From a virus: a stretch of DNA of 47,376 bases. Positions within the stretch are counted from its first letter, which is position 1; each line of letters starts with the position of its first letter. The notes beneath the pieces were generated by a model, which was not told the DNA's origin, did no database searches, and saw nothing but the letters and a program-made list of their open reading frames with translations. Shown piece by piece: positions 121-47,376 of this stretch. The position numbers and the translations under genes are program-made. Location: the IMG/VR virus record IMGVR_UViG_3300005647_000002, positions 1-47,376 of that record; one strand, written 5' to 3'.

Positions 121-3100
121 TACCTTGTTGAAGTCTTTAAAGCTCTGGTTAGCGTCTTTATTATCTCCAGTAAGGTATCTTCTAATAGATTGGATATCAT
201 CTGATGATAGTTCCTCTGCGAATTGCTTTACTTTCTTTTGTGTTACACCTGCTGACTTTGTTACGAGACTGTCGAATCCGCCTTTAGCGTCTTTGCCGAA
301 TTGTACGAAGTCTGCGCTGCCTTTTGTTGTTTTAGATGTTGCTGCGTTTTTTAGCTGACCAAAAGCACCCTTTATTCTACTTTTTCTCTCAGAATCTTTG
401 CCAAAGACAAGTTTTTCAATGGCTTTTTCATAACGCAAGTCCGAGTTTAGCACCTTATTAGCTAAACTAGAAACAACCTTACCTAGTAGCCCTCCAGTCG
501 GATCACCGATGCCCATAGAAAATGCTGCATCCATAGTGCTATTCTTTATACCCTGCTCAAAAAGCGATTTCTGACTATCATTGCCAAACATCTTTGTAGC
601 AAGCCATGCGAAGGTAGCATCATCTTGTATATCGTAACCTGTAAGGTTTTTTAATGACTCTGCGTTTGTCAGTGCTTGACCATTTCTGTCACTGTACAGT
701 CTATTCATTAAGAAATTAGGATTATTTCTCGACTTATTCAAAATCGCAATTTCGTCCGCAGCGTTAGAATAGTCATCCAATAATTTAGCCTGATCTTTTG
801 GTATACTTTCACGATTTACTTTTGCAAGATCGGCTCTGATACTTTTTGCAATGCCATCAATATTTCCAGATACCTCCTGAGAACTTTTACCAAAATCGGC
901 TTTACTACCAACTCTAGATATTACATCAACTAATGATTCTAGTGTACCTGTAGTAGTTGCAAACTCAATATCATCAAAAAACTCACCAATCATTTTTCTC
1001 TCGGAGTCGCTATATACACCCCTTCTTCCATCAATATCTTCAACTTTGATTTTGCCATCTTGATCTTTACTCACTCTAACACCTTGTGACTCTAATTTGC
1101 TATTTAGTCCATTGATAACAGAAGCAAGTTTATTCTTATCAACTGTAGTTCCTCCATATTCTTTTCTAAATTTACCAATTTCTGATCCTATGTCATTTAG
1201 AATATCCTGAGCCATGTCAACAGTAGCGATATACTTGTCAGCAGCTACTTGAGGTGCTGCTCTCATTGTATCGCTATTATTTCTATTGATTGCTGCTGAT
1301 ACATAGAAGTTATAAGCGTCAGGCTTATTCTTGATACGTTCTTTTATGGATCGATCTATTTTAGGGTCTCCAAGTATTCTTTGTCTGATTCCATCAGCAG
1401 CTCTTGATTCTGTAAGGAGATTCATACCAGCAGTTATCCTACCAACCGCCCCAGGCTTATCCTTTTCAATTCCCTCAAGTACTAACTCTTCTATCTCTCT
1501 TTCGATTTGATCTTTTGCACTGTCTGTATTCAATAAGGTGCTGTTTGGCTTTACATCACTAAACCTGGAATTGTTTTCTCTATCATTGAAACCAAGACTG
1601 CTATCGCTTGAGCCTGTCTCTCTTTTATCTGTAATAACATCAACTATTTCATCTCCTGTTTTTGGCAATGTTACAACTTCATCAGCATTTTTTGTTGCGC
1701 TTCTTATACCGCTATCCACACCCTCTTGAATTGTTTGGGTTGCTGCCTTAAAAGCTGTTCTTGCTGCACCACCAGTTAAGACTGATATGATACCACCACC
1801 TATATTTGCTAAAGCCTCAAAGTTCTCTGCATTTACCTTGTTGTCAGTGCTACTATTTTTCCATGTACTATAAGTCTCTATTCCACGACTAGCAGCCTGT
1901 AATCCAGCAGCCACAGCAGGATTCTTCTTTATTTCTTCCCCAAGTTCTGCAAATTCTTTATCAGATGTTGCAAGGTCTGCTGTTTCTGCTACTGCTGCCT
2001 CTCCTAGATCGAATATAAAACCAAGCACATCACCTGTTACTTGTGTACCCGTATCACCTCTTAATTGTTCGCCTGAATCTAGTCTCTGAAATGACTCTGC
2101 AATGCTACCTCGTCTTTTTGTGTATGCCTCTGATACCCTTGAAAAGAGTGTATCTTCACCCTCTGTCCTTGAGAAGTCTTGACCAAAACCTGGAATTGGC
2201 AAACCTCCAACGATAGCACCATTTTCTGGTGTGTTTTCTCCTAATCCCTGTGATTGTGTCTCAGAAAGTCCTATATTAAAGCCAGATTCTGCATTATCTA
2301 CTTTTTTTTTACCAGTTTCAGGATCATAGCCTTGTGACTCGATATAAGCCCTAGCTTTAGGGTTGTTTGGGTTTGTGAGTGCTAATTGTAGCTTTCTGTC
2401 TGTGATTGGCTCGTCCCCTGTAGATGAATCTTGCACAGAGCCGCTCAAACCTTGCACTTTAGCAAGTCCGCTTTCTAATGCATCCTTTACTCTTTGCACC
2501 TCAGCTATAAATGCCTCCTCTGATATTTTTGGATCTGCAAGTATAGTCTCTGCATCTGCCAATGCTTTCTGCTCCGCATCAGTAATAGTACCTTGTCCAG
2601 CTAGTTTTTCACGAGCGTTTACGATCAAAGTTGATACAATTTGAGTTCTTTTAGCATTAAAATCAGCGGCTTCAGTTCCTGATACAAAATCTGTTGCTCC
2701 TCCTCCGAATGGCAATATTGATCTCACTGACTTCCCAAAACCTGCTCCGACTGCTGCCTTGAACCCTCTATTGTTAGTAATATCATCTTGTAATAATTTG
2801 ACTTTCTCTATATCACCAGTGAGTAAGTCGACTGTAGAGAGCCTATCATCTTCTTTTAGCTTCCTTTCTTCTCGAACCTCAAATTGCTTATCTGGGCTTA
2901 AACCTGCTAATGGGTCAACCTCTCCAGTTCCACCTCCGTATCTGTTCTGTAATTCAAAGAACTTTTCCATCTTATCAACATTTGCATCTGTAATTTCAAT
3001 TCCATTTATTTCACCATAAACATTACTGGAATCAGTAAAATTACTTTCAACATAAGCATTTACCTCACTCGGTTGTAGATTGAGTTTATACAAACCAGCT

Positions 3101-6043: not shown

Positions 6044-7000
6044 TTAAGGTTGTGGTACCCACCATGGATAATCGTTATTCTCTGCTTCTTCTCGGACTCC
6101 ATAATCGTCATAACATGCTGGCTTTGCTGGCTTTGACCCTTCATCTATTGAAGCACATAGCCCAGGCTTACAGATATACATGTAATAACTAACTGCCTTT
6201 GATGGCTGCATGTTGTTTGTAGGCTGTGTATCGGCCTCTGCACCTTTGATAAGATCCTGCTCAACACTGAAACATCCGTCTGGCGTTTCTGCTGTAGTGT
6301 ACTGGACATAATCTGTACCCTCTACTGCTGTATCTGAAACACATCCGCCATCAATATCAAGAATAAAGTGATAGTCATATCCGTCAGGAACTTCTAGTAT
6401 TGGATCTTCATTAGGATCTAACTGTTCATCGCCTCGTGGAACCCATATAGCCTTTGTAGGTACTTTAAAGCTCAAATCAAACTGATCTGTAATGTCACAA
6501 ACCCTGCTTTCTTCACATTGCATCGTATGCTTTGCCTCACCTGTACACATGCCAACGCTTGTAAGTCCATGACCATAGTAGTCTGTAGGATCCGCCATAA
6601 CTGGAACTTGACCTCGCATATCGCACATTGTATAGCACTCTACGAGATCACCTGATTTGTTGTAGTAATTGATTTTTCGTCCGTCCATCAAAGCCCAACA
6701 CTTATTACAGCATGGAGCGTCACTAGAAGTAATTGCATTGATTTTTACATCACCAAAGCACCAGTCAGTAAATTTATTGACCATATCTTCCATAAAGAAA
6801 CGGAAAGGGACATATCCACAGTTATCTCCTGGAACGAAACCAAGTAGCCACATGTTATTAGGGATTTCTCCATGCTCTTGGACATCCCATCTATCAAAGA
6901 TTGCTGCGTCTACTGCTGCTGGACACATATTGCCTCTGCAACTGTCATCTCCACAGAGACTTCCGCAACATCCATCTGAGTAGTCTAATTCTCCTGCCAT
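6044..7000 (-). CDS. Cysteine-rich phage tail collar-domain protein
   Basis: The 318-residue protein has the signature order of the phage tail collar domain: CWALMDGRKI at 101-110, DMRGQVPVM at 127-135 and GEAKHTM at 154-160, matching the family pattern W-x-x-x-DG, D-x-RG-x-x-P and G-x-x-x-H-x-(L/M). It contains about 20 cysteines (6%), several as CC or CxxC pairs, with five in the first 26 residues. Collar proteins sit where fibres join the tail. The cysteine load suggests disulfides or metal sites. It starts at ATG 7000 behind an A/T-rich leader with no Shine-Dalgarno site. Confidence 0.85.
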   Translation of the reverse strand: MAGELDYSDGCCGSLCGDDSCRGNMCPAAVDAAIFDRWDVQEHGEIPNNMWLLGFVPGDNCGYVPFRFFMEDMVNKFTDWCFGDVKINAITSSDAPCCNKCWALMDGRKINYYNKSGDLVECYTMCDMRGQVPVMADPTDYYGHGLTSVGMCTGEAKHTMQCEESRVCDITDQFDLSFKVPTKAIWVPRGDEQLDPNEDPILEVPDGYDYHFILDIDGGCVSDTAVEGTDYVQYTTAETPDGCFSVEQDLIKGAEADTQPTNNMQPSKAVSYYMYICKPGLCASIDEGSKPAKPACYDDYGVREEAENNDYPWWVPQP

Positions 7001-7004
7001 ATAT

Positions 7005-7196
7005 TTATGTTATTGATTGATCTGATCCACTAAAGGTAGCGCTGTATGGACGAAATGCGTTATATGGATTATACGGAACAACATCTTTATAGATAATTCT
7101 TTCCTGTACAACTGTTTTTGCTTCTTTCAACATTTCAATTTCTTTTTTCAGTAATTCTATCTCTTTTTCATACAATTCTTTTTCTTTATCGCTCAT
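7005..7196 (-). CDS. Small coiled-coil protein
   Basis: This 63-residue protein has an N-terminal half (about residues 3-35) that is a clear heptad-type coiled coil of E, K, L and I. It is followed by a Tyr/Pro/Asn-rich tail ending in ATFSGSDQSIT. It is tightly packed between two tail genes. It may be a small structural or fibre-trimerisation protein; the function is unknown. Confidence 0.75.
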   Translation of the reverse strand: MSDKEKELYEKEIELLKKEIEMLKEAKTVVQERIIYKDVVPYNPYNAFRPYSATFSGSDQSIT

Positions 7197-7200
7197 AATC

Positions 7201-7419
7201 TTAATATATTTTTCTTATTGGTGTTCGCACCTGTATCATTACTCGCTCTCCACAGTCATCAAAATATGATATTGGTTGACCGCAGATTGTCAGTACAGTT
7301 TTCATGTAAGTAGGTTTCTGTCTATCGTTATCTGGTAGTGATCCTTGTGGCTTTCTATTTACCAGAGAAGATGTGCATAATCCTTTACATTTACTGTTTT
7401 TACAACATTTATCACTCAT
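7201..7419 (-). CDS. Small cysteine-containing virion-region protein
   Basis: A 72-residue protein. I place the start at ATG 7419, giving MSDKCCKNSKCKG, 5 bases past the stop of the upstream gene; an upstream in-frame ATG at 7482 would overlap that gene by about 58 bases. The N-terminus has a CC-x3-C-x3-C cluster and the middle holds CGQPISYFDDCGER, which looks like a beta hairpin. Function unknown; the cysteine content matches its tail neighbours. Confidence 0.7.
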   Translation of the reverse strand: MSDKCCKNSKCKGLCTSSLVNRKPQGSLPDNDRQKPTYMKTVLTICGQPISYFDDCGERVMIQVRTPIRKIY

Positions 7420-7423
7420 ATTT

Positions 7424-8287
7424 TTACTTATACTGATAAATTGGGAGATCATCGTGCCATCTGACAGGTACTTCGTTCTCATCGCCTTTCTTGTAGGCTT
7501 TAATCATCTGTTGATAGAGTAACGTGTACATTTCTACTGTGCTGGCATGTGTGCCACCTTTTTGACCATCGTGCCTATTCAAGTAGCGTAACGCTGTGAA
7601 ATATGCCAAAACTCTGTACCACCGTGAAGGGAAATTAACGTTTTTCGTGTCTTTGGTGATAAATCCTGCACTTTGCCTATATGTTAGTCGCAATTCTCCG
7701 TACTGTGTGACCTTAAATGGCAGTATAATGCAGTTATTTTCCTTCAGATATACATCCTTGCACTTGAAACAGATTTTACACTTGTTAAACGCCATATCGT
7801 ACGCCTCAGAGCCTCTCTTGCAGCATTTACTCTGGTTAAACTGGTTATGCTTGATAGGTTTCATCTCCTTGAAGCAACAACATCCTGCGTCATACTCTAC
7901 TCGTATGATCTCTGCTGTATCTTTTGGGAGTGGATATTGATTGTAACGTCCCATCTCTCCATCGTCTTGTCCTTCCTCTACCATCACTGGAATGACTGTG
8001 GTACGTACAAAATCAGTAAGACACTTAGTCTCAGCGATGATTTCTTCCTGTAAAAAGCCTATAGAGAACTGTAGATCACGCAAAAAGGCATCAAACTTAT
8101 AGCTTTCACCTTGCGTATTGAGTACGTTCATCTTTATTTCCCTGTAAAGGAAGTGGACATCGTTGCCTTCTGGACATTCTGGATTGGCAAACTTAGAGAA
8201 GTCTTGGGTACATTTATCTGTACAACCTTGCAAGTTATCTGCACTGTTGTACTCGTTGTACTGATTGTAAGAATGATTTGCTGGCAT
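7424..8287 (-). CDS. Probable head-tail connector / tail tubular (ring) protein
   Basis: This 287-residue protein lies just after the major capsid gene. Its C-terminal part, FPSRWYRVLAYFTALRYL followed by a helical stretch to about residue 275, resembles the helical end of T7 gp11-like adaptor proteins of short-tailed phages. About 13 cysteines cluster in the middle: CCC near 134, CC near 154, then CKICFKC. That suggests a disulfide-linked or metal-binding insertion not usual in the family. An AAGGA site about 8 bases upstream is one of the few Shine-Dalgarno-like signals here. Assignment by position and pattern. Confidence 0.65.
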   Translation of the reverse strand: MPANHSYNQYNEYNSADNLQGCTDKCTQDFSKFANPECPEGNDVHFLYREIKMNVLNTQGESYKFDAFLRDLQFSIGFLQEEIIAETKCLTDFVRTTVIPVMVEEGQDDGEMGRYNQYPLPKDTAEIIRVEYDAGCCCFKEMKPIKHNQFNQSKCCKRGSEAYDMAFNKCKICFKCKDVYLKENNCIILPFKVTQYGELRLTYRQSAGFITKDTKNVNFPSRWYRVLAYFTALRYLNRHDGQKGGTHASTVEMYTLLYQQMIKAYKKGDENEVPVRWHDDLPIYQYK

Positions 8288-15811: not shown

Positions 15812-15912
15812 ATTTTTATAACAGAAAAGGTGTACCGCTTGGAAGAAGTACACCATCTCTGATTCCAAGCTATTTACTATATAAGTATAGCATATATCTT
15901 CTAATTGTCATG

Positions 15913-15984
15913 CTCCCCCAGTAGGATTTGAACCTACAACCCTTTGCTTAACAGGCAAATGCTCTACCATTGAGCTACAGGGGA
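15913..15984 (-). tRNA. tRNA-Asn (anticodon GTT)
   Basis: A complete 72-base cloverleaf on the minus strand: acceptor TCCCCTG with TGGGGGA (two G-T pairs), D arm GCTC/GAGC, anticodon arm TTTGC-CTGTTAA-GCAAA, 5-base variable loop, and T arm GTAGG-TTCAAAT-CCTAC. The discriminator is G, as expected for Asn. CCA is not fully encoded. It lies upstream of the HNH gene in the packaging cluster. Confidence 0.95.
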
Positions 15985-25782: not shown

Positions 25783-26895
25783 CTAGTAAGGCAACTGAGC
25801 AGGAACTACTGCAATATCTGTTTTGTAGTTGTATTTTATGCAACCATCTTCAATCATAAATGAGCCGCTAATTTCTAGCCATTTCTCCCATCTTGTTTCT
25901 GTAGGGAATCCTAGAAAGTTATCAAAGTATTCTGTATCAGATGTTCTTACGCTGTAGTGTCCGTTCTCTGTAGGCAGTTCTTGTCCGATATTGTAGTCAG
26001 TCCATCCGTTATGGTGTCCTACATACTGCCACTCCACGTTATCAGTGCTAAATCCTGTAGACCTTTGAATAAACTCACCTGTGTCCATGTAGCCATCATC
26101 GTTTCTATCCTCGTAGTAGTTAAACATTGGCACAGTGTCACATTCTTCTACCGCTTCGACTTCAACGTATTCTACAACTGTCTCTGTTACTGTCTCGTAG
26201 ATTGTTTCGTAGACTACTTCTGTGATGGTTTCCACTGGCAATTGTTCAGTAGTTGTATTATTATCTTGTTGTTCTTCGATTGAACTTTCTTGTTCTCCTC
26301 TTGTTGTTCCTGTATCAGTAACCGAGTCTCTTTGTGTCTCATCTCTATTTGAAACAGTGCTATCCGAATCAATAAAATCGTTGCCAACAAGCTCATCAGC
26401 CACATACCATGCAATTCCTTCATACCCCCAATTTTTATCGTTGTTTATAATTAAGTCTTTCTCACTTTCGCTCACAGTGTAGAAATGGTGCTTGTAAACA
26501 GGACTCCAGAAGCGATATACAGGGTCACCCTGCTCTCTGACGTAAAAAGCAATACCTTCGTATGTCCAGTTGTCATCATCGCCTAATCCTGCGCTTTCTG
26601 ATTCGCTGATTGTGTAGAAATGTCCTTTAAAATTCTCTGACCAGTGACGGAATACAGGCTTGTAATCTCCATCGTGTGATACATCATATGCTACACCCTC
26701 GTACTCCCAGTTATCGTCATTGTTGATGAGGTTGTCTTTTTCGTTCTCGCTTACTGTGTAAAAGTGTCCTTTAAATTGTGGGCTGTAAAACCTGTGGAGT
26801 TCTTTTGCGCTTGCACCTTTTGCTAGTGCAAAGAAGATGATTACCCATGTTATTGCTATGATTGATAGGATTGTGTAAAACTCTTTTTTTGTCAT
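25783..26895 (-). CDS. Exported protein with three DUF5648-like repeats
   Basis: The 370-residue protein has an N-terminal membrane segment or signal (about 8-28) and three ~40-residue repeats (34-73, 81-120, 126-166). Each reads like R/H-F/W-x-(S)P-x-x-K-(G/H)HFYT(V/I)SE-x-E followed by W-x-YEGxA, the DUF5648 pattern known from surface proteins of Patescibacteria and other bacteria. A Thr/Glu/Val-rich stalk (170-240) and a C-terminal domain with NYYEDRNDDGYMDTGEF, like a calcium-binding loop, follow. Probably displayed on the infected cell, or a virion surface protein; unusual in an early block. Confidence 0.8.
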   Translation of the reverse strand: MTKKEFYTILSIIAITWVIIFFALAKGASAKELHRFYSPQFKGHFYTVSENEKDNLINNDDNWEYEGVAYDVSHDGDYKPVFRHWSENFKGHFYTISESESAGLGDDDNWTYEGIAFYVREQGDPVYRFWSPVYKHHFYTVSESEKDLIINNDKNWGYEGIAWYVADELVGNDFIDSDSTVSNRDETQRDSVTDTGTTRGEQESSIEEQQDNNTTTEQLPVETITEVVYETIYETVTETVVEYVEVEAVEECDTVPMFNYYEDRNDDGYMDTGEFIQRSTGFSTDNVEWQYVGHHNGWTDYNIGQELPTENGHYSVRTSDTEYFDNFLGFPTETRWEKWLEISGSFMIEDGCIKYNYKTDIAVVPAQLPY

Positions 26896-29946: not shown

Positions 29947-30654
29947 TTATCTTTTCAACAATTTAACAATCTTTGTCTTTTTACCAAACTTCTTAGCTTC
30001 CTCATGCGCTTCCTGTCCATAACCGAAGAATACATCAAATGTCATTCCGTTTCGCTTCTGTACCCATTCTGCTGTACGATCTTCACATACATATCGTGTA
30101 CCATCTATTTCTACTATTGAGTGCATCTTGATCCACTTAGGACATGCTATAGTACCTTCTCGTGCTACTTTGTTTGCAGCATTGAGGCAACCACCCTTTC
30201 CATCTGGATAATGGCATGAGTCAACGTCTGTGTATGCTGTGACTGCTGCTGTGTATTCTGCTACTACGTCCTTGTCATCTTTTGGTGTCTCGATTGTAAC
30301 CTCTTTCTTATCTTCTTTTTCCTCAACGATAAATGTTTGTGTCTCGATCATGTTAGGCTGATCGTCCATAAACTTTTTGAAGTCGTACCCTGCGTATACT
30401 GCAAGTCCTAGAATGAAGATTGTAGCGATTGCAAGTGCTTTCTTCATCTTCTTTTTTTGCAGGTTCTTTTTCTTTGTAATTTGTCCTTTTTGACTTGGGG
30501 TCAGTCCTTTTTGTACTTTCTTCATACGATTTCCTTTTCCTGGTACTAGTTCTACTTGTGCTTTCTTTTGCTCTTTAATGGCTTTCTTTTGTCGTGCGAT
30601 ACCTTCAAACTCTTTCTGGATATCTGCTCGCTGGTTTATTTCTTTATTAGACAT
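29947..30654 (-). CDS. Membrane-anchored 3D-domain (RlpA/MltA-like barrel) cell-wall enzyme
   Basis: This 235-residue protein has a basic N-terminus to residue 70, one membrane segment (73-90) and a charged linker. The C-terminal domain (about 137-228) has TAYTDVDSC, GTIACPKW, GTRYVCEDRT and TFDVFFGYGQEA, following the 3D/double-psi barrel pattern with its aspartates (D142 or D145, D192, D207) seen in lytic transglycosylase-type enzymes. Cysteines at 147, 156, 171 and 190 could form disulfides outside the cell. Being far from the lysis block, it may act early, e.g. in wall remodelling. Activity inferred from family. Confidence 0.78.
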   Translation of the reverse strand: MSNKEINQRADIQKEFEGIARQKKAIKEQKKAQVELVPGKGNRMKKVQKGLTPSQKGQITKKKNLQKKKMKKALAIATIFILGLAVYAGYDFKKFMDDQPNMIETQTFIVEEKEDKKEVTIETPKDDKDVVAEYTAAVTAYTDVDSCHYPDGKGGCLNAANKVAREGTIACPKWIKMHSIVEIDGTRYVCEDRTAEWVQKRNGMTFDVFFGYGQEAHEEAKKFGKKTKIVKLLKR

Positions 30655-32809: not shown

Positions 32810-33358
32810 TCATATTTGACCAAATTTCTCTTTATAAAGTTTTAATTCTTCTTCACATGTGATTGGAATCTCCTCTATAGCCATTGTATTACCCCAGCCA
32901 CCACCTCTACCCCATGTAGCCCTAGAATGAACCACAATGCCGTCTACAGGGCTTGTAAACGACCATCCGAAGTCTTGGTTACCGTATGTATTAGATCCGT
33001 TTATGTCCAAACCAGGGTGGAAACTGTTGGAAGCTCCACTAATTTGATCCAAAAAGTCATAGCCTTTAATGCCTACGTCCATTCTCCTGCCAAACATTTT
33101 ATCATAGTTTGTAGATTGTCGAGGGTTTATGTAGTTCTTTTTGACGTAGCTTCGCCCTTTTCTTATAACATACCGAAGCATTGTCTGATATGTAAGATTA
33201 TCGCTTATCTCATGATGTAAATGAGCGTACATCTGGTTTGAAGATGTTTTACTGTTTCCATCCCCTATAGTACCTAATTTTGTCTTATAAGCATAAACAC
33301 GATCACCGACTTTAGCGGTATTTTCGCTCATGTGGCCAAATAGGTGTATTCTTGCCAT
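32810..33358 (-). CDS. M23-type peptidoglycan endopeptidase, circularly permuted
   Basis: The 182-residue protein carries all M23 (LytM/lysostaphin) elements in swapped order. First comes the usual C-terminal half: HLFGHMSENTAKVGDRV (H9), a GTIGDGN turn, then the HLH motif H46-L-H48 in YAHLHHEIS and INP at 77-79. After a ~30-residue linker comes the usual N-terminal half: FHPGLDI (H114, D118), SPVDGIVVHS and GWGNTMAIEE. H114, D118 and H48 would bind zinc; H46 and H9 would be catalytic. It follows two holin-like genes, so it is the probable endolysin. No signal peptide, consistent with holin-dependent release. Confidence 0.8.
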   Translation of the reverse strand: MARIHLFGHMSENTAKVGDRVYAYKTKLGTIGDGNSKTSSNQMYAHLHHEISDNLTYQTMLRYVIRKGRSYVKKNYINPRQSTNYDKMFGRRMDVGIKGYDFLDQISGASNSFHPGLDINGSNTYGNQDFGWSFTSPVDGIVVHSRATWGRGGGWGNTMAIEEIPITCEEELKLYKEKFGQI

Positions 33359-33363
33359 TTTAT

Positions 33364-33654
33364 TTATTCATACATTTTAACATCGTCCAAGCTACTGTTA
33401 CTCTCTCCGCCTATTGCCTTCGCGCCCTCCCAGAGGCCAGTAGCAGCCAATCCTGACATTCCAAAGAGAATACCGCCTACAAGTCCTGATAAGCCTTCCG
33501 TCTGAAGCCCTGTGATGCCTCCTATGAGCATACCAGTGCCTAAAGCTACCAAAGGTACTCTATGGTTCTCAACGATCCTTGCTCGCTTAAATATGGCCGC
33601 AACCATAAATGAGATACTAACAATTTGTGATAGTTCTACTACTGAATCAATCAT
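33364..33654 (-). CDS. Holin-like membrane protein (second holin or antiholin)
   Basis: This 96-residue protein has two to three membrane segments (about 10-24, 33-50 and 57-80) with Gly-rich VPLVALGTGMLIGGI and LVGGILFGMSGLAATGLWEGAK, a pattern shared with small phage holins, and a short acidic cytoplasmic tail. It sits between another holin-like gene and the M23 gene. Whether it opens or inhibits the hole cannot be told from sequence. Confidence 0.75.
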   Translation of the reverse strand: MIDSVVELSQIVSISFMVAAIFKRARIVENHRVPLVALGTGMLIGGITGLQTEGLSGLVGGILFGMSGLAATGLWEGAKAIGGESNSSLDDVKMYE

Positions 33655-33962
33655 TGCTTTTTGTTACCAAGTGAATTAAGTTTATCCACAATCAATTTAC
33701 TGATTGCGTTTCCAATAGATATAAGTATAGGTGGGCCAACATGACCTGAGACTCCAGTGATGGCGTAAGCAAGGTATGGATAGCTCTCACCCATAAAGCC
33801 GAAGGCTATCAAGCCGACAATTACACCTGCAAAAGAAGCCATGAATAGATTACTGAAAAATGAAATCATATCTTTTTTATCTTGCTTCAATGCGTAGGTT
33901 ATCCCTCCTCCTATTGCCAGTAAAGCGTGTGCCAGTAATTCTTTGAAACCTACCTCAAACAT
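33651..33962 (-). CDS. Holin-like membrane protein
   Basis: This 103-residue protein has an N-terminal helix (HALLAIGGGITYAL), a charged LKQDKKD loop and membrane segments at about 37-56 and 64-84, ending in a Lys-rich tail. Layout and KQDKKD loop resemble LydA-type phage holins. It overlaps the second holin-like gene by 4 bases. Probably forms the pores that release the M23 enzyme. Confidence 0.75.
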   Translation of the reverse strand: MFEVGFKELLAHALLAIGGGITYALKQDKKDMISFFSNLFMASFAGVIVGLIAFGFMGESYPYLAYAITGVSGHVGPPILISIGNAISKLIVDKLNSLGNKKQ

Positions 33963-33966
33963 ATTA

Positions 33967-34785
33967 TTATTTTACGTTATATCTTTCTTTGGTGTAACCT
34001 TTTTCCAATAGACCACCTATCTCTAATCCAGCTAAATTATCGGGACTCCAATGCACACAGGCAAAAGTTCTCCACTGCGAGAATAGATATGCACAGTTTT
34101 TAACAACCATTTCCTGCTCTTCTGTGAGCCTATAATAATCTATAATCGCTTTTGCTGCTGATCCTGCAAGGCATCCATGCCCTGCTGGGAAAGACGGATG
34201 TGAGGGGCAGCCTTCCTCATAAGCAGTCATCTCCGCCCCACCACTGTATTCTTCTGGTCGAATGACACCAAAGTAGTATTTAGACTGGAAACCACGCTCT
34301 ACGGCCATATCCTGCTTCCTAGTGATGTATCTAGTGGCCTTTGGTATTGTGCCGATAAACTCCTTCAAAAACTTTGTCCGTTTTGATCGTGGCTTTACGC
34401 CCTGTGAAACGAGCCAGTCCTGAATAGCAAGTGGTAAATCTGCACTGTGATCCATATGCACAATATCAGCACACCCTTTAGGGTCGCTATACATCAGTCC
34501 CATAGCATAAAGAGGCCCTGGCATTAATTCTTCTGGGTAGTGCTTTTGATCCCAAGGATAATGCTGTCGCATAAACTCATGAGGGTATTCGCCTTTCTGT
34601 AACATTTCTCGTACTTCCATCACTTCTTGGTGGTACTGTGGCAAGTTCTTTTCGGTATAAGGGTTTTCTAGTCCGTTCTTTTTACCACGCCTCACTGAAA
34701 CAACTTGTGTGCCTTCTACATCAAGTTTCCTGATACTACGAACTGGATATGATATTTCCTCTGGATGTCCTTTTGAAAAGTGCAT
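33967..34785 (-). CDS. Vanadium haloperoxidase / PAP2-superfamily enzyme
   Basis: The 272-residue protein has the three binding motifs of the vanadium-haloperoxidase/PAP2 fold: K169-x6-R176-P177, HPSFPAGHG (196-204, G202 and H203), and R239-x5-H245-x3-D249. RPEEYSGG and VHWSPDNLAG resemble haloperoxidases more than lipid phosphatases. The usual Ser of PSGH is Ala201, which would weaken oxyanion binding. About 12 further helices fit the fold. It precedes the holins. It might oxidise halides or dephosphorylate lipid carriers such as undecaprenyl pyrophosphate; neither is proven. Confidence 0.82.
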   Translation of the reverse strand: MHFSKGHPEEISYPVRSIRKLDVEGTQVVSVRRGKKNGLENPYTEKNLPQYHQEVMEVREMLQKGEYPHEFMRQHYPWDQKHYPEELMPGPLYAMGLMYSDPKGCADIVHMDHSADLPLAIQDWLVSQGVKPRSKRTKFLKEFIGTIPKATRYITRKQDMAVERGFQSKYYFGVIRPEEYSGGAEMTAYEEGCPSHPSFPAGHGCLAGSAAKAIIDYYRLTEEQEMVVKNCAYLFSQWRTFACVHWSPDNLAGLEIGGLLEKGYTKERYNVK

Positions 34786-39448: not shown

Positions 39449-42034
39449 TTAGTCTTCTTGCTGTGGTACGTTATTTGGATCAAACCAACACTCACCAGTT
39501 CCATTCCAACCTACGACACAAGGATTTCCGTCTGCGTCCGTTGCGCCTGTCTCTCTATGCCATCCTGCGAGGTTTACTGGACAGATTGGATATCCTGCTG
39601 GTCGTTCGCATGAAACGTATGTAGTGCCGCCTCCAGTGTTACCGCCTCCGTTATCCACAGGGCAAGTACATGAATTTAAGCCTGAAACGTCTGTAATTAC
39701 GCCATTTTCATTTTTGTAACGTGTACCGCCACATATTTCAAATGGTGCGTCAGTATATCGTTCTACTTCTTTGGTGTATTTCTCACAAGAAGCAACATCT
39801 GCTGTAAGACACTCATAATCATCTACACTCCAGTTTCCACCATTAGGGCTAGATACTAAGTCTAAGTTCTCCTGGTAAGTATCCATAGGCTGATCGTATA
39901 GACCTGCGTTGTTTCGATCTGGGTAGTAGTGACCTGCATAGAAGAAGTTAGGGTCATTAGAAACACCTGCAAAGTCGAAACAGTTGTGGCCACCTGCCGC
40001 ATTACTATCTGCTAGTCCATGAGCATTTCCCCAACGTGCAGGAGATACATATAATACTTTGTCAGCAGTCAATCCTACTGTATTTCGATACCAAGGCATA
40101 ATCATTGCTACGAAAGTCTCCCATGCTTGTACTGTAGTGTGTACTGGGTCTGCTGTATTTCCTCCTGGTGCTTCATGTGGCTCATTTACGATATCTACAC
40201 CTAACAATGCTGGGTGATTCTTAACCTGTACTGTATTTCCATTGATATCAGTAAATGTATGATTCATCAATGAAAGGATATAGTTCTTGTAATGCGCTTC
40301 ACCAGGGCTATTTGGAACTGTAACATTTTGTCCACAAATAGTAGCGTATTTCTTATCACCTTGACCTGGGTGCAATACGTCCAGCACTACTTGTATACCT
40401 GCTGTTTGTGCGTTATTTAGGAGATTAGATACATGACCGATCAATGCTGGATCTACTGCATTTGTATTACAGTCATATAGCCATGTTGTATCTCCTGCTA
40501 CACCGCCTCCTGCTGGCTCTCCTAGAGGATATCGTATCGCTGTTATACAACGTCCATTTTGTGTAAGTTGCTGTAATGTTGAAGCAGATGGTGCATTTTG
40601 TGGAAGCTGATTGTTTTGGCTAAACTCATGTCCTGCAAGATTTATAAAACTAATCCCTGCCATATTACAGTGGTAGTCTTTCATTGGAATTGAGATACAA
40701 GTGTCGTTTTGAATATCTCCATTACTGTCCATCTCGTAAGGGTTTAGTCCATAACCACACTGATTACATCCTGGTAGTTCTGACCATCCCCATCCTTCAC
40801 CTGTAGCCCAAGGTGCTATATCAACGCCATAACAAGCTGCTTGCTTGTAAACTAACTCATCAAGTGCGTTCCATTTTGCACAATCTCCTGGGATAACTGT
40901 CTTATCGTGTTCTGACATCCATATTGTCGCATATTCAAAGATCACGCCACGCTGTCCCATTGTTTTAAGACATTCATAGTATGACTGCATTTGTGTCAAA
41001 GCTCGTGCCTGTAGAGCGTCTGTAGGCTCTAAGCACTCACAGAGATTGTTTGGGTCAGTTCCTTCAAAGCACTCCTCACCATCTTCTACCCATTCACATG
41101 TTCTCATGGGATCTACAATAATTGTGCCATCTTCACAGACAGTACAGCAATCACATGGCGTGTAAGTTGTAAGGACGTTGCCATCTTTATCATAGAATCG
41201 AGTAGCTACGACTGTATCAGTATTTGGGTTTTTATCAATCCTCTTTTCACCTTTATTGCATTTTCCGTCTGCATCCTCGTAACAGATATATCCATCAAAG
41301 ATATCTGTAATTGTTGGTAGTGTGTTTGTTTCAGTAACACAAGCCACAATTAAGTTAGGGTCTAATACATCCCCATTCTTATCAAAATATAGCTGTGCGA
41401 CTGTACTTGTATTTGTTGTTTCGTTTGTGGTCACTTGCTCCATACATGTACCCTGACTCTGAGATGCTCCATCTGTGTAACAAACAATCCTAAACTTCCT
41501 GTAGGATATCGTTGTATTGGTGTCTGTAGTGCCGCCTGTGCCGATTAAATCTTCAGCGCATACCCAAGCACCATTTATGTACTTTGCCACCTGTCCCTCG
41601 CCACAATCAAGGTCTGCGAGTACGTCTGTATTTGGGATTGTAGTATCAGGAATTGTTGTGTCAGTGTCAGTATCTATATCATCTGCACATTCCCATGAAG
41701 TTCCGTTCCATTTTGGTAGTTGACCAACGCCACAAGAAAGAGACGCAAGGGTATCAGTCCCTCCAACGCCTACGTTATCGTCTCCACACTCCCATTCGCC
41801 AGAAGTGACGTTATACTTCATTACTTGACCATCTCCACAGTCTGGTGGGGTAAATCCTCCACAATCGTCACAGTTAGCTTGTAAAGAGTCTAAGAACTCC
41901 TGCTCTGTGCCTGTATTTCCCTGTTCGAGCCATGCTTCATAGAGAGCTTGCATGATCTGATCGTTTGTAAGGTCTATTTCGACATTACAACCGCATCCTT
42001 TATAAGTTTGTGACCAAAAGTTGTGACCTGGCAT
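39449..42034 (-). CDS. Tail fibre with GH5-like glycosidase domain
   Basis: An 861-residue protein. The N-terminus has three repeats of about 45 residues (56-90, 96-120, 140-165) with CG-x-GQ-x-x-K-(W/Y)-x-G-x-W-x-C, typical of bacterial and phage fibre stalks. A cysteine-rich middle follows. The C-terminal part (about 450-760) reads as a glycoside hydrolase family 5-like barrel: AGISFINLAGHEF, ITAIRYPLGEP, LDVLHPGQGD, GVDIVNEPHE with the acid/base E618, and FYAGHYYPD. I see no clear nucleophile motif after it, so activity may be altered. Such a domain would digest host surface polysaccharide. Confidence 0.8.
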   Translation of the reverse strand: MPGHNFWSQTYKGCGCNVEIDLTNDQIMQALYEAWLEQGNTGTEQEFLDSLQANCDDCGGFTPPDCGDGQVMKYNVTSGEWECGDDNVGVGGTDTLASLSCGVGQLPKWNGTSWECADDIDTDTDTTIPDTTIPNTDVLADLDCGEGQVAKYINGAWVCAEDLIGTGGTTDTNTTISYRKFRIVCYTDGASQSQGTCMEQVTTNETTNTSTVAQLYFDKNGDVLDPNLIVACVTETNTLPTITDIFDGYICYEDADGKCNKGEKRIDKNPNTDTVVATRFYDKDGNVLTTYTPCDCCTVCEDGTIIVDPMRTCEWVEDGEECFEGTDPNNLCECLEPTDALQARALTQMQSYYECLKTMGQRGVIFEYATIWMSEHDKTVIPGDCAKWNALDELVYKQAACYGVDIAPWATGEGWGWSELPGCNQCGYGLNPYEMDSNGDIQNDTCISIPMKDYHCNMAGISFINLAGHEFSQNNQLPQNAPSASTLQQLTQNGRCITAIRYPLGEPAGGGVAGDTTWLYDCNTNAVDPALIGHVSNLLNNAQTAGIQVVLDVLHPGQGDKKYATICGQNVTVPNSPGEAHYKNYILSLMNHTFTDINGNTVQVKNHPALLGVDIVNEPHEAPGGNTADPVHTTVQAWETFVAMIMPWYRNTVGLTADKVLYVSPARWGNAHGLADSNAAGGHNCFDFAGVSNDPNFFYAGHYYPDRNNAGLYDQPMDTYQENLDLVSSPNGGNWSVDDYECLTADVASCEKYTKEVERYTDAPFEICGGTRYKNENGVITDVSGLNSCTCPVDNGGGNTGGGTTYVSCERPAGYPICPVNLAGWHRETGATDADGNPCVVGWNGTGECWFDPNNVPQQED

Positions 42035-47226: not shown

Positions 47227-47376
47227 TTATTTTATATCCGTATCAGAACCAGCCTTAGATTTCTCTAAATCATTTCTAATCAATCCCTCACGTCCATCAA
47301 CAATCTGCTCTAAGACATCTCGTTTCTCTTTGTCAGATGGGTTTTTCTTGATATTGAACTTTGTAATGATTTCTTC
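47227..47376 (-). CDS. C-terminal end of the large ejection-type protein (joins 1-3183)
   Basis: The frame enters from the right edge and continues to TAA 47229-47227. Bases 47257-47376 duplicate 1-120, so only 47227-47256 are unique (nine residues plus stop). Confidence 0.85.
   Translation of the reverse strand, partial: EEIITKFNIKKNPSDKEKRDVLEQIVDGREGLIRNDLEKSKAGSDTDIK
47257..47376. repeat. Direct terminal repeat, right copy (circular contig)
   Basis: Identical to 1-120; see the left copy. It should be removed before circular analysis. Confidence 0.95.

Follow-up and report, generated by a model that had tools for sequence, protein, structure and literature searches.

A probable phage endolysin built on a naturally circularly permuted M23 peptidase

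The gene at 32810-33358 of virus record IMGVR_UViG_3300005647_000002 most probably codes for a phage endolysin, an M23 zinc peptidase with a natural circular permutation (probability ∼0.85). The record is 47,376 bases long and was analyzed in full; this whole stretch is referred to as the window. The gene was the sole M23 match within the window and lies on the minus strand (reading 33358-32810), a detail that the original prediction had not given. In its product the C-terminal half of an M23 domain (GHMS...HLHHE...YINP) stands before the N-terminal half (FHPGLDI...SPVDGIVV...GWGNTMAIEE), and both halves are present in the order that had been predicted. The gene and its upstream neighbors are as follows:

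32810..33358, minus strand: permuted M23 peptidase gene, candidate endolysin, 182 aa
33364..33654, minus strand: holin-like gene, 96 aa (PHROG 1299 holin, E 1.5e-10; Pfam Phage_holin_5_2, E 0.0041)
33651..33962, minus strand: holin-like gene, 103 aa (Pfam Phage_holin_3_3, 31.0 bits, cut-off 28.4; PHROG 785 holin)
33967..34785, minus strand: PAP2-superfamily gene immediately preceding the holin pair (Pfam PAP2, 27.9 bits, cut-off 27.2)

The motifs of the protein run in the order GH9M, KVGDRV, H46LH48, YINP, FH114PGLD118, GNQDFG, SPVDGIVV, GWGNTMAIEE. HxH is located at residues 46-48 and HxxxD at residues 114-118, the reverse of the usual M23 order of HxxxD then HxH. The chain was divided into four parts:

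33119..33358, minus strand: residues 1-80, ancestral C-terminal half (GH9 strand, KVGDRV, H46LH48, helix, YINP), matching Pfam M23 profile positions 46-90 and phiLo gp72 residues 101-173
33020..33118, minus strand: residues 81-113, joint of the old termini, with residues 92-113 (RMDVG...) corresponding to an N-terminal extension native to ordinary relatives
32864..33019, minus strand: residues 114-165, ancestral N-terminal half (H114PGLD118, GNQDFG, SPVDGIVV, GWGNTMAIEE), matching phiLo gp72 residues 15-78 and PDB 8s3m residues 102-144
32813..32863, minus strand: residues 166-182, C-terminal tail with a predicted helix at 168-179, not common to relatives

In alignments H9, H46, H48, H114 and D118 occupy the expected M23 active-site positions, and we take them to be the counterparts of the catalytic and zinc residues of LytM. 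The protein shares its motifs, these five active-site residues and a similar domain size with the PF01551 family (LytM, lysostaphin), but its halves are swapped and it has its new termini in the hairpin that connects the GNxxxIE and xHL strands.

The window carries a 120 base exact direct terminal repeat (1-120 and 47257-47376) and is therefore probably a complete genome. Shine-Dalgarno-like motifs were rare before the start codons of window 1-47376 (5 of 54 ORFs; background 16%) and the regions upstream of the ORFs were A-rich with T at −1, which suggests that the host, for example one of the Bacteroidota, initiates translation independently of Shine-Dalgarno motifs. Also encoded on the minus strand are a single tRNA-Asn (15912-15984), a DUF5648 protein that has a hydrophobic N-terminus and contains repeated HFYTVSE-type units (25783-26895) and, among structural-looking genes, a large protein bearing a glycosyl hydrolase family 5 (cellulase) domain (39449-42034). 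Membrane-anchored proteins with a C-terminal part that resembles a 3D/RlpA-type domain by eye are encoded at 29947-30654 (minus strand) of the window and at 6936-7511 (plus strand) of the related contig L048. Neither had a significant match in Pfam or NCBIfam; they are perhaps a second wall-active protein. The PAP2-superfamily gene gave weak matches to undecaprenyl-diphosphate phosphatases and possibly belongs to the lysis cassette.

Relatives with the same order of halves were obtained from scans of viral contigs (L004/L012, L005/L013 and L014/L048). A DNA pattern for HPGxDxNG then gave L049, L052, L054, L055, L056, L062, L063 and L064, and every M23 so found was permuted. The set comprises 12 contigs including the window and 11 distinct permuted proteins (those of L054 and L062 are identical), the relatives being ten further distinct proteins on eleven other IMG/VR contigs of uncultivated phages. 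Identity to the window protein is 48% for L014/L048 and 32-47% for the remaining relatives. H9, H46, H48, H114 and D118 are invariant across the 11 proteins, in keeping with the prediction that all metal and catalytic residues remain. All ten relatives exceed the PF01551 cut-off in their natural order (31.7 to 59.6 bits), unlike the window protein. The closest pair, L012/L013, has a dN/dS of 0.12 at a dS of 1.27, which shows purifying selection on this pair; many other pairs are synonymously saturated.

Several members, 153-182 residues long, are small and stand alone. Others carry C-terminal additions: in L049 (9115-9954, plus strand) the permuted M23 is followed by a coiled coil and, at the C-terminus, by a membrane segment, and the protein is possibly a tethered lysin; behind its permuted M23, L056 has an extra C-terminal domain of ∼130 residues (at 1619-2014, minus strand), which matches tape-measure and endolysin PHROGs and gave only implausible weak matches in the PDB; L012 and L013 carry a long C-terminal tail.

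In a tree calculated with all sequences set in the same order, the permuted proteins formed one group (support 93/90), adjacent to the Thermus-phage-type and L008/L009 proteins (84/85). The exact sister is unsure because some branches are long. Permuted M23 was not found in 395 genomes from the phylum of a Flavobacterium MAG with a profile that recovers all 12 virus records, nor in 295 genomes from the phylum of an uncultured Bacilli MAG, and no permuted relative was found in the annotated phages or plasmids searched. A scan of genome contigs gave only ordinary-order M23 among the loci with motif order checked. A linker-specific DNA pattern, used to seek an unpermuted ancestor, returned permuted members and, apart from these, only two loci lacking any M23 match.

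The nearest ordinary-order relatives found were the Thermus phage M23 proteins phiLo gp72, Lalka8 gp27 and the TSPphg lysin of TSP4. phiLo gp72 has the RxDxG N-terminal and YxDP C-terminal extensions in common with the window protein and is ∼31% identical to it after rotation. TSPphg is a bactericidal lysin, experimentally lytic (PMC7077265), and its gene adjoins a holin gene. The original prediction placed the window gene directly after two holin-like genes, and both of these match holin families (Pfam, PHROG), with the 96 aa gene stopping 5 bases short of the M23 start codon. A Phage_holin_4_1 protein is encoded upstream of the permuted M23 in L012 and a weak holin match just downstream of it in L054; most loci have short hydrophobic or small membrane proteins next to the gene. 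Simple hydropathy gave no hydrophobic segment in the window protein, and signal and membrane segments are likewise absent. Because of the holin neighbors, the missing hydrophobic segment and the lytic relative TSPphg, a holin-dependent endolysin is the best reading, with a putative catalytic activity and substrate, and the predicted endolysin role gains support from the same neighbors and canonical relatives. The protein would accumulate in the cytoplasm, as expected from the absence of signal and membrane segments. The upstream holins would open the membrane, and the protein would then pass through and cut peptide cross-links of peptidoglycan.

Some M23 proteins, such as EnvC and NlpD, are inactive activators, and a non-catalytic (binding or regulatory) protein, or one acting from the virion instead of as an endolysin, has to be weighed here. 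Structural-looking genes occur within a few kilobases in several loci, and both tape-measure profiles and an endolysin profile match the extra domain of L056. We consider this reading unlikely, although the most probable of the alternatives. Unlike in degenerate activators, the five catalytic and zinc residues are unchanged in 11 divergent members. Two holins immediately precede the window gene and the L012 gene follows a holin, and several members are small and stand alone.

The order of the halves was examined by rotation. In its natural order the window protein scored 21.3 bits against PF01551, over profile positions 46-90 only and below the cut-off of 28.7. With the halves swapped it scored 33.3 bits, above the same cut-off, over profile positions 2-90 of 96. 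BLASTP aligned the natural chain to phiLo gp72 as two inverted pieces (query 92-151 to 15-78 and query 7-84 to 101-173) and the rotated chain as one continuous alignment of 166 columns (31% identity, 57.8 bits, E 2e-15). The lytic endopeptidase of PDB 8s3m, which shares the FHPGxDIN...NQDFG motif and matches in both halves but is longer and of ordinary order, likewise gave inverted pieces with the natural chain and a continuous alignment after rotation.

A profile of 38 ordinary M23 domains was run on four permuted proteins, scanning rotations. The window protein gave two inverted hits of 25.5 and 21.1 bits (positions 70-117 then 19-64). Rotation raised the best single hit of the four proteins from 25.5 (window protein), 27.3, 46.0 and 39.9 bits to 50.6, 57.1, 83.4 and 76.4 bits respectively, ∼1.8- to 2-fold, with a common breakpoint between profile positions 64-66 and 68-71 of 131. 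Chance motif matches were considered and rejected, as 800 shuffled sequences reached at most 7.5 bits with this profile.

In the window protein the breakpoint falls in the hairpin that links GNTMAIEE to RIHLFGHM. In phiLo-type ordinary relatives RxDxG precedes the HPG motif and YxDP follows HxH, and the counterparts in the window protein are RMDVG and YINP. These extensions are native to the ordinary relatives and therefore only ∼11 residues of the joint are new. A linker of ∼30 residues had been proposed; residues 81-113 do join the old termini, but 92-113 are native and the truly new joint is shorter. The ancestral chain would have been opened in the hairpin between strand GNxxxIE and strand xHLFxHM, with the old C- and N-terminal extensions linked through the ∼11 new residues. 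A likely origin would be that an ordinary M23 lysin gene was duplicated and the outer halves were then lost.

The same arrangement could have arisen by fusion of halves from two different M23 genes in swapped order. The C half gives scores against a wide range of M23 proteins and the N half is closest to Thermus-phage-type M23, but the C-half comparison is biased, since C-half patterns were used to select most of the loci. In the rotated order the homology to phiLo gp72 runs without a break and reaches both terminal extensions, and a two-gene origin is accordingly given a low probability, below that of a non-catalytic or virion protein.

A first AlphaFold2 model from four full-length permuted rows had a pLDDT of 35.0 and a pTM of 0.26. 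A second model, for which 39 half-length rows of ordinary M23 domains were added to 11 permuted rows, was confident (pLDDT 90.1, pTM 0.86); the half-length rows inform each half separately, and how the halves pack against each other depends on the predictor and the 11 full rows. Strands 116-121, 133-135, 140-146, 157-163, 4-13, 27-32 and 46-52 fall on the M23 strand motifs in rotated order. Foldseek searches of the PDB and of viral models with this model found nothing at E 0.001 or better and no M23 chain; the aligner is sequential and may miss a permuted chain. VIA-align, also sequential and run on Foldseek candidates only, gave weak barrel-sandwich hybrid matches (NqrA, Z 4.5, 64 residues, 2.8 Å) and no M23 chain. 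The structural check that had been proposed was thus only partly borne out: it yielded a confident model with strands in rotated M23 order, and no M23 entry from sequential searches. An M23 protein has been aligned with HABAS / barrel-sandwich hybrid domains, in a work where topologies are related by circular permutation (PMC11515920). The model superposes in sequence order on the 64 residues of NqrA, a member of these domains together with biotin and lipoyl carriers, but they are not peptidases and the match is weak.

On the alignment, the chain would fold as one M23 domain, with H114, D118 and H48 predicted to hold zinc and H9 and H46 as the putative catalytic histidines. A domain-swapped dimer, in which each site is formed from halves of two chains, might be favored by the short joint, but the monomer model is confident at the pTM given above and we regard the dimer as very improbable.

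All 12 contigs encode proteins that match a profile of permuted proteins over nearly the whole length of the profile. When this profile was built without the window protein, the natural order of the window protein gave one unbroken hit of 153.9 bits; the rotated window protein and the best-scoring ordinary M23 proteins gave two inverted pieces or one half only. Mis-joining of two neighboring gene fragments by an assembly or sequencing error, named beforehand as grounds for rejecting the permutation and favored by nothing found except the metagenomic origin of the contig, is excluded by the same order on eleven other contigs at 32-48% protein identity and by this unbroken hit. Because the rotation tests and the independent contigs agree, the exchange of halves is read as a circular permutation, as originally predicted.

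Natural circular permutation has a precedent in a peptidoglycan peptidase superfamily: permuted NlpC/P60 proteins (YaeF/G6R, LRAT-like) are mentioned in a passage of PMC6403190 citing Anantharaman and Aravind 2003. These differ from permuted M23 in fold and in catalytic chemistry. No report of natural circular permutation in M23 was found in the literature searched, which included only a minority of subscription papers, and this absence is not proof. Judged by sequence, the window protein and its relatives would constitute a new permuted variant of M23.

Endolysins of this kind can escape detection: the window protein in its natural order falls below the Pfam cut-off and the sequential structure search missed M23. 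The permuted branch has accessory parts attached at a different end. As a tentative and rather doubtful explanation of why a whole phage lineage uses permuted M23, the permutation may free the C-terminus at a new place on the domain for C-terminal attachments, as which the coiled coil and membrane segment of L049, the extra domain of L056 and the long tails of L012 and L013 can be read. If so, the L049 protein would be a membrane-tethered, possibly holin-fused endopeptidase. The conserved permuted branch marks where the M23 fold tolerates new termini and offers a natural test of how far M23 folding and catalysis depend on chain order.
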